Part shown: positions 11,343 to 15,924 of the stretch, in pieces
Numbering within the stretch: position 1 is the first letter of the stretch
Layout: each line of letters begins with the position of its first letter
Assembly (NCBI GenBank): GCA_026014665.1
Contig: JAOZHX010000016.1
Coordinates: 1 to 64,000, forward strand
Source: Candidatus Bathyarchaeota archaeon
GTDB lineage: Archaea > Thermoproteota > Bathyarchaeia > Bathyarchaeales > Bathycorpusculaceae
DNA: 64,000 nt
Direction of reading: 5' to 3'
Made by a program: the position numbers and the translations under genes
Notes under the pieces: generated by a model
Database searches by the model: none
What the model was told of the DNA's origin: nothing
The model's input: the letters and a program-made list of their open reading frames with translations, nothing else

Positions 11343-11564
11343 GTGAACTTGGAAGCATACACTAAAGAGAGGCTGTGGCAACTGCTCGTTGAAGTCGTGC
11401 ATGCCTCTGTCATGTACCCAACACATAAATCCTATACTCGAGACTTCATCCTGCCATCAAACGTGGATATAACAGCCGCTGAACTTGCGGAGAGATTAGG
11501 CATGCCGCTTGCAGAAGCCCTCGTCATTCTCGACGAACTGCAATCCCAGAGAAGCGGTTCTTAG
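11343..11564 (+). CDS. Small helix-turn-helix-like protein, unknown function
   Basis: A protein of about 73 residues (GTG 11343; GTG 11325 would add six). The C-terminal half, DITAAELAERLGMPLAEAL, reads like a winged-helix or HTH segment that might bind DNA. I do not recognise the family. It lies between the S component and the convergent tungstate ABC ATPase, and its stop overlaps that gene's end by 4 bases. A role in regulating its neighbours is possible but unsupported. Confidence 0.5.
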   Translation: MNLEAYTKERLWQLLVEVVHASVMYPTHKSYTRDFILPSNVDITAAELAERLGMPLAEALVILDELQSQRSGS

Positions 11565-12622
11565 AGAACATTAACGCTTGAAGCTTTAAACGCAATGTAA
11601 ACTTCGGAATCAAGGTTAAGCGTCATCTCCTTGAAGGAACGCTTAGTAACCTGAACCGTAAAAACCCTGCCCACGTCCACTTTTAGCTTCACAAGCGAGC
11701 CTAAATCGGCTATTTCCACGATTTTCCCTTTGAAAACGTTTCGTGCGCTCGATTGGAAAGGAGTCTTCGTTAAGATGATGTCTTGGGGGCTGACAAAAAC
11801 AGAAATCTCCCCAATTTTAGGCTCTGTAACTTCCACCCGAAAACCGTTACCTAAATCCACCATAGTTGTGCCCTCCAGCGTCGGCATCGCATTACCTTTA
11901 AAGGTGTTATCAACCGCAGCAAAACTTGCCAGGTTCTTTGAAAGTTTACCGAAAACCTCAGCAGGCGTTCCCATCTGAGTTATTTTTCCATTGCTTATCA
12001 GTGCAATTCGGCTTGGCAGGGTTTGGGCTTGGAACATGTTATGAGTCGCTAAAACAATCGTCGTTTCCAATTCATGGTTTACGGTAGCAATTACTTCTTC
12101 AATTATCTGAGCGTTCTTAGGGTCCAAATTCGTGGTGGGTTCATCTAAGAGTAAGAGTTTAGTTTTTAGCACTAACGCTCGGGCAATGGCAACACGTTGC
12201 TGTTCCCCGCCTGAAAGCCGCTTAGCTTGGCGTTTCTCAAACCCCTCCAACCTCACAATCCTGAGCGCCTGAGCTATCAATTCGGCATGTTGATTTTTGG
12301 GTACTTTTCTAATTTTCAATCCATAAGCCACGTTATCGTATACTGAGCCTTCAAAGAGGGTTGTTTTTTGAAAGACAAGCGTGGTCTGCTGCCTCAAGCG
12401 CTCAACATTGTTAGCTGCAACTAACTCGCCGTTAAACTTTAATTGCCCACTTGAAGGCATCGTTAGAAGAGCCAAGGTTTTGAGCAGGGTGGATTTACCT
12501 GAGCCGTTTGGACCCAAAAGAGCAAGGATTTCGCCTTGGTAAACTTGCAAGTTGACGTTGTATAACACCATTTTAGCATCAAACGCTTTAGACACGTTTT
12601 CCAATTCAGCAATGGCGCTCAC
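11561..12622 (-). CDS. tupC: Tungstate/molybdate ABC transporter ATP-binding protein
   Basis: A 353-aa ABC ATPase: Walker A LGPNGSGKST near residue 36, signature LSGGEQQRVA near 140, Walker B LLLLDEPT near 158, and H-loop ATHN near 193. The last 120 residues form a TOBE/mop-like region, typical of oxyanion importers. It overlaps the permease gene by 4 bases and completes a tupA-tupB-tupC operon. Tungstate is favoured over molybdate because the binding protein is of the TupA type. Tungsten would serve aldehyde:ferredoxin oxidoreductases or formate dehydrogenases encoded elsewhere. Confidence 0.9.
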   Translation of the reverse strand: MSAIAELENVSKAFDAKMVLYNVNLQVYQGEILALLGPNGSGKSTLLKTLALLTMPSSGQLKFNGELVAANNVERLRQQTTLVFQKTTLFEGSVYDNVAYGLKIRKVPKNQHAELIAQALRIVRLEGFEKRQAKRLSGGEQQRVAIARALVLKTKLLLLDEPTTNLDPKNAQIIEEVIATVNHELETTIVLATHNMFQAQTLPSRIALISNGKITQMGTPAEVFGKLSKNLASFAAVDNTFKGNAMPTLEGTTMVDLGNGFRVEVTEPKIGEISVFVSPQDIILTKTPFQSSARNVFKGKIVEIADLGSLVKLKVDVGRVFTVQVTKRSFKEMTLNLDSEVYIAFKASSVNVL

Positions 12623-13356
12623 TGCGGTGACCTCCCAACCGTATAGTAAACCTTGAGCTTATGAGCCAGAACGACAAACGTGTTAATGGCAAAAACTATA
12701 ACCATCAACAATATGCCTAACGCAATCGCCAAAGCTATATCGTTAGTTTGAGTGTACCTTGAAATCGCCGTTGTAAGCACGTCAGTCAACCCAGCAATGT
12801 TTCCGCCAACCATTAATGCCACGCCCAACTCAGCAATCGCCCTGTTAAAGCTGGCAACGTTTGAAAACAAAACACCGTTTAACGCTTCCTTCAAAACGGC
12901 AATGGAAGCCTGCGACTCTGAAGCACCAAGGGTTCTTGCAAGGTTGATCATTTCTGGGTCCACTGCTTCAATGGCGGTTATCATGATGCTGATTAGGATA
13001 GGTGTAATCAGCACAGCTTCGCCGATAATTATGGCAGCTGGTGTGTAGAGTAAACCCAAAAAACCCAACGGACCGCCTTTTGAGAAAACCAAGAAAAGCA
13101 CTAATCCCAAAACCACGGTCGGAATAGCGATTAAGGAATTAAAAAAACCTTTCACCAAGGATTTGCCTCGAAAATTTCTCAGGCTGATTAGCATGGCGAT
13201 TGGTGTTCCCCAGAGCGCAGCTAAAATAACTGCAACGCCTGAAAATAATAGCGAGCGGAAAACTATCCCATAGAGTGTGGGGTCGCCTGTTATGATCAAG
13301 TGTCCTGCCTTAGCTAAACCGCCTAGTAAGTCAACCAATCTTATCTTCTCCAGCAT
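12619..13356 (-). CDS. tupB: Tungstate ABC transporter permease
   Basis: A permease of about 245 residues with five to six membrane spans and the inner-membrane coupling (EAA) loop containing RTLGASESQA. It matches the short TupB type. The ATG at 13356 (MLEKIRLVDLL) gives a 26-base overlap with tupA; an upstream ATG at 13407 would add 17 residues inside the tupA coding region and is less likely. It is co-transcribed with tupA and tupC. Confidence 0.88.
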   Translation of the reverse strand: MLEKIRLVDLLGGLAKAGHLIITGDPTLYGIVFRSLLFSGVAVILAALWGTPIAMLISLRNFRGKSLVKGFFNSLIAIPTVVLGLVLFLVFSKGGPLGFLGLLYTPAAIIIGEAVLITPILISIMITAIEAVDPEMINLARTLGASESQASIAVLKEALNGVLFSNVASFNRAIAELGVALMVGGNIAGLTDVLTTAISRYTQTNDIALAIALGILLMVIVFAINTFVVLAHKLKVYYTVGRSPQ

Positions 13357-14362
13357 AGAGTTCTGGGTATCCGATTCTGTATTGAATTGGACATTCTGAG
13401 CCATCAAAGAAGGCAGTGGATTTCAACCAGCCAACGAGGGGTTGCGGTGCGTTATCTTTTAAGGGTTGCACGGCGCCGAAAAAGAGGCTTTGCCCGTAAA
13501 TGTCTTTTCCATAATTCTCAATGAGCTGTTGGGTTTCGGGCGAAACAAGGTAGGAAATGAAGTTCATTGCATCAGCATAGTTAATCCTGTCGTGCGTTGC
13601 ATGGTTGGCTGTTGCAGTTTGGTTTACCGCCATCACGCTGTAAACATTGAGAAGCGATTGAGCTTGGGTTAAAAGTGCAACAAGCGAAACTGAACCACCT
13701 TTCTCGAACTTTAGGTAAGTTCCGATATCTGACAGCGTGTAAGCGTCTTTTTGATCAGCCAATGTTAAGGTCGCTCCCATGTCCTGTCCCACACTGCCAT
13801 ACCATGGTTGCGCTGAAACCCAAGAATAGTCATAGCCAGCCGCTCTCCAAAGGCTCTGCTCTTTGCTGTGAGTGCCCGAATTGTCGCCTCGGCTTATCCA
13901 GATTTTAGTTTGCCCTGACTGGTCGGTTAAGTTGCCGCCATAGTTGACTATTGCTTGGAGAGCCTCGTTGGTTGTTTTGCCTTTTATGCTCGCAGGATCA
14001 GTTTGAGGTCCAACTATGGTAAAGTAGTTGTACGCTATTATTTTTCGGTTTAATCCCCAACCTTGCTGCAGAAAGGTCAGTTCTTGGGCTGGGGCATGCA
14101 CAAGGATCAGGTCCGCATCGCCGTTTTGCGCCTGTTGTATGGCAATTCCTGTTCCCGCGGATATTATGTTGAGGTCAATGTCTGGGTGTTTGTTTTCATA
14201 GTCTCTCTCGAGCTGTTCCAGCAGCCCTGTGTCGTATAGGCTTGTAGTTGTGGATACTATGAGGCGTCTTTTGGGCGATAGTTGGAAGTACGCTGCTGTT
14301 CCTGCGATTGTGATAATGGTTGCTAGTGTAGCCGCTATGATTAGTTTTTGCCATGTTTGCAT
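13331..14362 (-). CDS. tupA: Tungstate-binding protein (periplasmic-type, TupA)
   Basis: A 343-aa extracellular solute-binding protein. A signal or anchor segment covers about residues 7-27. The TupA hallmark TTTSLYDTGLL (about 38-48) provides oxyanion contacts, and AGTGIAIQQAQNGDADLILVH follows in two parts around residue 70-90. This type binds tungstate much more tightly than molybdate in characterised bacteria (family knowledge). It is the first gene of the operon and is divergent from a ModE-type regulator. Confidence 0.92.
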   Translation of the reverse strand: MQTWQKLIIAATLATIITIAGTAAYFQLSPKRRLIVSTTTSLYDTGLLEQLERDYENKHPDIDLNIISAGTGIAIQQAQNGDADLILVHAPAQELTFLQQGWGLNRKIIAYNYFTIVGPQTDPASIKGKTTNEALQAIVNYGGNLTDQSGQTKIWISRGDNSGTHSKEQSLWRAAGYDYSWVSAQPWYGSVGQDMGATLTLADQKDAYTLSDIGTYLKFEKGGSVSLVALLTQAQSLLNVYSVMAVNQTATANHATHDRINYADAMNFISYLVSPETQQLIENYGKDIYGQSLFFGAVQPLKDNAPQPLVGWLKSTAFFDGSECPIQYRIGYPELYAGEDKIG

Positions 14363-14434: not shown

Positions 14435-14989
14435 TTGTTAACCAACAAAAAACACAAACTCTCCTGCAAAGCTTGGATCGAATACAAAGGAAAACCCCTA
14501 ATCGGCAAAGGCGGCGCAGAAATCCTAGAAACCATCGACAAAGAACACTCAATTTCCAAAGCGGCTGCAACGCTGGGGATGTCTTACCGTTATGTTTGGA
14601 ATTACATCCAAGAAATCCAAAATGTCATGGGTGAATCCATCGTTGAAACTTACAAGGGAGGCAAATCAGGCGGAGGTGGGGCAAAGCTAACGGGTTTGGG
14701 CAAAAGCTTGTTGAGCGAATATAAGCAAGTGGAGGGTTACCTGAATCAAGTTTTATCAGAGCAGGTGTTGGAGGTGAAAGGTTTGAAGTTGAGTGCACGT
14801 AATCAAATGAAAGGGAAAGTCGTAGCAGTGGAAAAAGGCGTAATAACTGGTAAAGTTAAAGTAGAAGTCAACATGCCCTTAACCGTTACAGCGGTTATAA
14901 CAAAAGAAGCCATCGAAGATTTAGACATAAAAGTCGGCGATGAAGTTACCGCCATAATAAAATCAACAGAAATCATGATTGCAAAATAA
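14435..14989 (+). CDS. modE: ModE-type oxyanion-responsive regulator
   Basis: A 184-aa regulator. The N-terminal LysR-like winged helix includes GGAEILETIDKEHSISKAA and MSYRYVWNYI (about residues 25-60). A glycine-rich linker (GGKSGGGGAKLT, about residues 76-87) precedes the C-terminal mop/TOBE domain, starting at LSARNQMKGKV (about 122) and binding molybdate or tungstate. A single mop domain suggests a dimeric sensor. It diverges from tupABC and most likely controls tungstate uptake. The start is a TTG at 14435 and may be leaderless. Confidence 0.9.
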   Translation: MLTNKKHKLSCKAWIEYKGKPLIGKGGAEILETIDKEHSISKAAATLGMSYRYVWNYIQEIQNVMGESIVETYKGGKSGGGGAKLTGLGKSLLSEYKQVEGYLNQVLSEQVLEVKGLKLSARNQMKGKVVAVEKGVITGKVKVEVNMPLTVTAVITKEAIEDLDIKVGDEVTAIIKSTEIMIAK

Positions 14990-14997
14990 CTATTTTC

Positions 14998-15552
14998 TTA
15001 CTCAACCACGTACCTGTAGGTGACATGTTCGCCTGCGGTGGTGCTTCTTCGGGTGATTTTGAGCACATCACCGGGTTGAGCACCGATTGCTTTGACCGCT
15101 GGATCACCTGATTTTATCTGCGGCATCTGGTAGGGCTGGACTTTGTATTGTGCGAGCAGTTGGTTCTTTTCTTTTTCGCTTAGAATTTCGTGAAAGGGAA
15201 CAAGTGCATGTTCGAATATGTCGAACACCGGGAAGGATTTGGGCAGCAATTCTACGTTTTTCTTTTTGGCACCCAATTTTACGGCGTGGGTGTAGCGCCC
15301 TTCTGTGACGACGATTGCTCGGTCTATTTCTTTTTCCTTCATAATCTTGTAGAGGGTGTTCATGGCCGCTATGCCGACTGTGGCTTCGCCCAGTATGCAC
15401 CAGACTATGGCTCTCTCTTTGTCTTGGGGGATGTCAATGATGTAAGCGTATGCACCTTCGTATTTTTGCTTTTCAATTAACTTGTATTTTCTTAGTTTGA
15501 TAAGGACTTCCGCTTTGCGTTCCTCTATTGTTTCCGTTTTGTTGGTGCTCAA
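14998..15552 (-). CDS. rpoH: RNA polymerase subunit H (Rpb5) with an extra N-terminal jaw-like domain
   Basis: A 184-aa protein. The last 80 residues are a standard archaeal RpoH/Rpb5 C-terminal domain: [36 protein letters not shown] and [13 protein letters not shown]. Ordinary archaeal RpoH consists only of this part. Here about 100 residues precede it, and [15 protein letters not shown] followed by [16 protein letters not shown] reads like the eukaryotic Rpb5 jaw domain (its VGI..., RAI-VV and G-T-A pattern). The gene stands alone, converging on modE rather than heading an rpoB-rpoA operon, so a second, canonical rpoH may exist elsewhere. Confidence 0.88.
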
Positions 15553-15924
15553 GCCTTAAACCTCAAAGTTAGAATACTCGCAACAAAAAAGAGTTGTTTA
15601 CCCTTAAACTTTTCTATTCTTAAAAAAAGAGAATCAAAGGAAAAAAGGCTTTTGCTGTTTTCTGAGCATTTTTAGACTAAAATGTTTGTTTGGTTGGAAT
15701 ATCTGTGGAGTCTATGTGTCATCGTTGGTGTCTGTATGCTTCTTAGTTCATTTTACGCTTGAATTTTTGTTGTCTATTATTACTCCTGAGGCATCTTCGA
15801 TTTTTCCTTTGATTTGTTTGATAGCTCCTTTTTCTCGATCTTGGCTCATAAATTGTTTATGTGTTGCGAATACAGAAGGTTGATGGCGACGGAATGCCGT
15901 GAGTCATAATATTTTTTTGCCGAT
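15553..15924. other. Gene-free spacer
   Basis: No ORF here has recognisable features. The 15580-15650 part is A/T-rich and probably carries the minus-strand rpoH promoter. A 65-codon plus-strand frame at 15686-15883 is hydrophobic but has no family resemblance and no clear initiation signals, so I do not call it a gene. Confidence 0.35.

Follow-up and report, generated by a model that had tools for sequence, protein, structure and literature searches.

Eukaryotic Rpb5 carries an N-terminal jaw that has been described as eukaryote-specific, its archaeal counterpart RpoH (Rpo5) lacking it (PMC2675907, PMC3906176, PMC6690254). Does an archaeal lineage nonetheless use a two-domain subunit of this kind? 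The question is raised by a gene in a stretch of 64,000 nucleotides from Candidatus Bathyarchaeota archaeon (contig JAOZHX010000016.1, positions 1 to 64,000; hereafter the window), for which a preliminary description had proposed an RpoH with a eukaryote-like N-terminal domain. We conclude, with a probability of about three in four, that this gene encodes the sole Rpo5 of the cell and that the protein follows the eukaryotic Rpb5 plan, an assembly domain joined to a dead restriction-endonuclease-like domain at the position of the jaw.

The reading frame is intact (Table 1). Its TTG start is supported both by the upstream GAGG and by the relatives of the protein, because the position of the start codon is "nearly invariant" among the 57 that were aligned. 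Residues 110-182 matched PF01191 with 102.5 bits (cut-off 23.5), the NCBIfam equivalog for RpoH (subunit H) was matched with an E-value of 1.8e-30, and the invariant positions of the C-terminal domain were retained in the alignment of relatives. Compared with Rpo5 of P. furiosus this domain showed 59% identity over 76 residues (VIA Z 13.6). The RpoH C-terminus recognized in the preliminary description was thus confirmed, and the roughly 105 residues preceding it proved to be real coding sequence, as judged by their conservation across the class and by low pN/pS. Among close relatives this ratio was 0.083 for the N-domain and 0.106 for the C-domain, indicating strong purifying selection on the N-domain. 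Sequence identity ranged from 17 to 81% among 33 diverse N-domains and from 44 to 91% among the 57 full-length relatives.

Table 1. Features at and around the long rpo5 gene (window coordinates).
Feature	Coordinates	Strand	Description	Basis
rpo5 (rpoH), long form	14998..15552	-	184 aa, TTG start	ORF listing and translation; sole PF01191 match of the genome
GAGG, ribosome-binding-site-like	15561..15564	-	8 nt 5' of the rpo5 TTG start	sequence
N-terminal jaw-like domain	15235..15528	-	residues 9-106, inactive PD-(D/E)XK fold	AF2, Foldseek/VIA, Pfam
W51-C52-I53	15394..15402	-	at the (E/Q)-x-K site of active Mrr nucleases; catalytic residues lost	joint alignment counts
T88-H-A-V-K92 loop	15277..15291	-	aligned with yeast Rpb5 TPSA loop (T117-S119); G60 to T88 spacing 28 as in Rpb5	alignments
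C-terminal Rpo5/Rpb5 assembly domain	15001..15228	-	residues 109-184	PF01191, E 1.1e-29
HTH + TOBE (ModE-like) regulator	14435..14989	+	convergent neighbour, outside the rpo5 system	Pfam
TupABC/ModABC-type ABC transporter	11561..14362	-	neighbour; ATPase with TOBE, permease, substrate-binding protein	Pfam

The fold of the N-domain was assessed using AF2 models built without templates, from alignments of window and genome-contig proteins only. The isolated domain was modelled with a pLDDT of 89.9 as a helix, three strands, a helix, a strand, a helix and a strand, and the full-length protein with a pLDDT of 84.9 and a pTM of 0.67. In a Foldseek search with the full-length model the best 34 rows were two-domain Rpb5 chains from eukaryotes and the ASFV viral homolog (E 9e-16 to 3e-9), and all one-domain archaeal RpoH structures ranked below them. 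Superposition on eukaryotic Rpb5 matched both domains (VIA Z 16.5, 178 residues, rmsd 3.7 Å), a result to be read knowing that the AF2 domain arrangement could echo Rpb5 structures used in training and that the hinge has a pLDDT of about 60. Together the models and searches put a domain of PD-(D/E)XK fold immediately ahead of the assembly domain in the chain. For the N-domain alone, Foldseek ranked Rpb5 first (3.4e-4; MspJI 7.9e-4), while VIA returned a tie between EndoMS (10.2), AF1548 (10.0) and Rpb5 (10.0), so that structure alone fails to discriminate between them. The N-domain of yeast Rpb5 is itself an inactive PD-(D/E)XK fold (PMC1185551 and PMC551604, which cite Todone et al. 2000), and "Rpb5 jaw" and "nuclease fold" are therefore two names within one superfamily. 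The nuclease fold that the preliminary description set against the jaw does compete with it, but the two are not exclusive.

Sequence profiles gave a similarly double picture. Residues 21-99 matched NA-iREase1 (PF22722; E 1e-6, 29.1 bits, cut-off 27) and Mrr_cat (PF04471; E 4e-6, 27.3 bits, cut-off 21), and Mrr_cat matched all 33 N-domains at E <= 1 (best 1.6e-11). The Rpb5_N model PF03871, which at just 89 positions is weakly informative about Rpb5 membership, matched one of the 33 at E 0.1, none above its cut-off in 100 genomes, and nothing on the ORF itself. Searches of the PDB pointed to Rpb5: the phmmer alignment with eukaryotic Rpb5 was colinear, extending from residue 54 as far as the C-terminus, and the leading matches of a profile built from the 33 N-domains were all Rpb5 (E 2.3e-6 to 3e-4), again colinear, with Rpb5 the only match below E 0.4 (fly 2.3e-6, mammal 1.3e-4, Arabidopsis 1.4e-4, yeast 0.25). 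By hhalign, long forms scored 61/62 with Mrr and 37/33 with Rpb5-N, and Mrr scored 30/35 with Rpb5-N, which puts Rpb5-N about equally far from long forms and Mrr and the long forms nearer to Mrr.

Spacing and local motifs were then compared with yeast, Arabidopsis and fly Rpb5, using sequences checked against the PDB. The junction between the domains (E to H) spans 14 residues in 59 of 62 long forms and in all three eukaryotic proteins; the G to T spacing of 28, likewise found in all three, is present in 49/59 long forms scored. The loop at the end of this interval reads T-x-(S/A)-(A/V)-(K/R) in long forms (T in 54/57, K/R in 55/57), so that T, S/A and A of the yeast TPSA loop are conserved and the Pro is absent; at the same loop the third residue of Mrr proteins is mostly acidic and the fifth hydrophobic. 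The Rpb5 pattern claimed for the N-domain is accordingly seen in its fold, its position and its spacing.

The distribution of the long form was surveyed within the Thermoproteota. In its own order the long form (180-239 aa) was present in 51 of 52 genomes with a match; the exception, a seemingly short rpoH in genome G146, was rejected, as the contig end cuts the frame. Within the class, long forms characterize families f13, f14, f16, f18, f19 and f25, and short forms (open frames of 84-136 aa) families f9-f12, f15, f17, f21-f24 and f26. Related genomes, where an absence of similar long forms had been named as evidence against the proposal, are thus filled with them. When an N-domain profile was run over 397 Thermoproteota genomes, full-strength matches were confined to Bathyarchaeia, also when the search was repeated around another centre; no long form turned up in about 310 genomes from the rest of the phylum, where the profile met only weak Mrr-like nucleases (best E 8e-9). 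Named relatives were all Bathyarchaeota or Bathycorpusculum MAGs, a few being labelled Crenarchaeota, Nitrososphaerota or uncultured archaeon, and no copy was found among the viral contigs searched. One genome of family f8 (G139, 98% complete) had no significant PF01191 match, its sisters G504 and G507 having the long form; an assembly gap, a lost gene or a diverged gene could each account for this.

Where the N-domain came from is a separate matter. Its recruitment probably took place within Bathyarchaeia, from a family of Mrr-like nucleases and in parallel to eukaryotes, and we place this ahead of the alternative of a single fusion between an inactive nuclease domain and RpoH as the common ancestor of long Rpo5 and eukaryotic Rpb5, kept or transferred in these lineages and elsewhere lost or never present. 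Such common ancestry, although doubtful, would explain the same fold and domain order, the shared junction spacing, the T-x-(S/A)-A loop, an aromatic residue that in both groups frequently occupies the catalytic E/Q position, and the rank of Rpb5 as top PDB match of the N-domain profile. Against it stand the hhalign scores, the confinement of the long form to one class of the phylum surveyed, the occurrence of Mrr-like paralogues of the N-domain in the same genomes, and gene order: other Bathyarchaeia families and outgroups share a short, operonic rpoH, which makes the long, ectopic gene look derived. The trees are neutral, the N- and C-domain alignments being too short to place Rpb5-N or to count origins. 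In the N-domain tree the long forms grouped weakly (84% SH-aLRT, one T2 row falling outside), and none of three constraints was rejected (AU p 0.60, 0.68 and 0.64), a joint clade with Rpb5 being retained at 0.60-0.68. The long form occupies four places within the class in the rpoB tree, and a single long clade bordered on rejection in the C-domain tree (AU p 0.051, only 79 columns). The suggestion of an ancestral full-length form finds some backing in the junction spacing, but distribution and gene order favour a derived gain. It is correspondingly doubtful that the fusion which gave rise to Rpb5 survives in Bathyarchaeia or was exchanged between them and the eukaryotic stem.

What the N-domain would do can be proposed from homology and from the known biology of Rpb5. 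The C-domain would dock on Rpo1, and the N-domain would occupy the lower end of the cleft for DNA, where it may hold the downstream duplex and possibly bind factors too; long Rpo5 would then be a putative obligate subunit that uses a dead-nuclease jaw to grip downstream DNA. In yeast, the TPSA loop (T117-P118-S119-A) touches the DNA in front of the fork (PMC6690254). A jaw by fold could instead dock protein partners, such as transcription or repair factors, rather than DNA. This variant is consistent with the loss of the TPSA proline and with reports that the Rpb5 jaw binds transcription factors besides DNA (PMC3906176, PMC13257274, PMC6690254); we consider it unlikely, since the loop T and K/R rank with the most conserved residues of the N-domain, as DNA contact would predict.

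For a role in the polymerase it matters whether the long form is the only Rpo5 available. The search for a second, short rpoH suggested at the outset was run on the genome (2.37 Mb, 94% complete), and the single PF01191 match was the long gene, which argues that it encodes a polymerase subunit and not an alternate copy. The rpoB gene and an undivided rpoA (1278 aa) lie on contig C20, with L7Ae and NusA-like KH genes behind them and no rpoH upstream, so that the gene is indeed outside the rpoB-rpoA operon. Among the loci fetched, short rpoH of the class has rpoB directly 3' wherever the contig extends far enough, and long rpo5 never does except at L148:5893-8295; that linkage was set aside as a likely misassembly, because the rpoB there is 5'-truncated, its homology beginning at residue 630 after 73 unrelated residues. 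The gene instead adjoins the ModE-like gene and the TupABC-type transporter across its own family, the transporter adjacency being conserved, and in families f13 and f16 it lies beside nucleotide-metabolism and oxidoreductase genes (products assigned by visual inspection of the sequence). The alternate subunit envisaged in the preliminary description, or likewise a regulatory RpoH, working beside a normal short one, would fit the location outside the operon and the two or three long copies in a few family f16 genomes, but is very improbable given the single copy here and the survey of the class, in which no genome combined both forms.

Several observations concern copy number and the polymerase genes themselves. 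Divergent long rpo5 genes, two or three per genome, were seen in G038 (L072-L074), G071 (L075, L076), G119 (L077, L078), G018 (L049, L050) and G429 (L060, L061); these possibly encode alternative polymerase subunits, MAG contamination being another possible source. A second rpo5-like stretch in G006 (C11:326388-326910), split between reading frames with an internal TAA and lying beside an intact copy, is apparently a decayed gene. At L165:4326-8162 (minus strand) rpoA is one uninterrupted frame of 1278 aa (Rpb1 domains 1-5) with no A'/A'' split.

Catalytic capacity was examined in a joint alignment, in which Mrr nucleases retain D in 15/16, E/Q in 15/16 and K in 16/16 sequences. None of the 57 long forms has the D or the K, and E/Q is found in just five, as Q. 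The better score of the Mrr profile, which the preliminary description had linked to a nuclease reading together with intact PD-(D/E)XK residues, is hence accompanied by their loss. A fusion of RpoH with a catalytically active Mrr-type nuclease, for example as a transcription-coupled DNA-cutting or defence protein, draws on the above-cut-off Pfam scores and the structural tie with EndoMS and AF1548, yet is the least probable reading, given the missing residues in a sole RpoH that is conserved order-wide like a housekeeping gene, unlike patchy defence genes.

Related domains also occur in other settings. Paralogues of about 190 aa in the same order (L198-L213; e.g. L201:1972-2544 in G452) share the N-domain, but at the C-terminal side carry a Cys-containing stretch (C-x-x-x-C-G...SDC) in place of Rpb5_C; hhalign puts them nearest to the "T2" N-domains found in G149 and G429. 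Single-domain REase-like proteins of about 120 aa (L166:2124-2489 on contig C9 of the genome that carries the window, L214-L217, L236 and L237) conserve the motif R-T-(V/I)-G-(V/I)-N and retain part of the active-site residues; the member from the window's genome had no Pfam match up to E 0.01. A 232-aa open frame (L028/L155, G081) has a CxxC...CxxC zinc-ribbon-like insertion in its long Rpo5 N-domain.

An archaeal clade with the two-domain form as its only Rpo5 breaks the rule of a eukaryote-specific jaw. The full-text literature searched, with preprints and most subscription journals outside it, contained no prior report of a long archaeal Rpo5; a 2026 survey of archaeal polymerase subunits models bathyarchaeial Rpo5, and the long form is unmentioned in the retrieved passages of that survey (PMC13257274). 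The relationship between the jaw and Mrr-type nucleases is far easier to see in long Rpo5 than in eukaryotic sequences. Either archaea and eukaryotes share a fusion, or the same dead-nuclease fold was joined twice to the same subunit with the same spacing; both are of interest. Were the shared fusion true, the "eukaryote-specific" jaw would be archaeal in origin, derived from an Mrr-like restriction nuclease. The origin of the jaw thereby becomes testable, and Bathyarchaeia offer a natural system for asking what it does.

Among known systems, long Rpo5 most resembles eukaryotic Rpb5 (POLR2E; yeast 1dzf) in domain order, inactive PD-(D/E)XK N-domain, T-x-S-A loop, junction spacing and, presumably, one copy per polymerase, but its N-domain is shorter by about 25-30 residues, lacking part of the Rpb5 stretch ~30-75, the TPSA proline is missing, PF03871 is not matched and the sequence is nearer to Mrr. 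Canonical archaeal Rpo5/RpoH (P. furiosus, Sulfolobus) has the assembly domain in common; in contrast to the bathyarchaeial protein it is about 80 aa long without an N-domain, and the short genes examined in neighbouring Bathyarchaeia lie directly 5' of rpoB, where long rpo5 does not. Mrr_cat nucleases share the fold, the profile match and an (F/Y)-T-x-x-A helix start, but keep the D-(E/Q)xK that the N-domain lost, the latter being fused to a polymerase subunit. NA-iREase1 (NACHT-associated inactive restriction endonuclease), the top Pfam match, is inactive too; its partner is NACHT, whereas the long Rpo5 ORF holds only REase-like and Rpb5_C domains. In Sulfolobus, finally, the absence of a jaw leaves a groove in which Rpo13 docks, beside Rpo5 at a locus partly filled by the eukaryotic jaw, and a role at the transcription bubble has been proposed for it (PMC2675907); Rpo13 of Sulfolobales is, however, a separate helix-turn-helix subunit, with a fold unrelated to the N-domain of long Rpo5.
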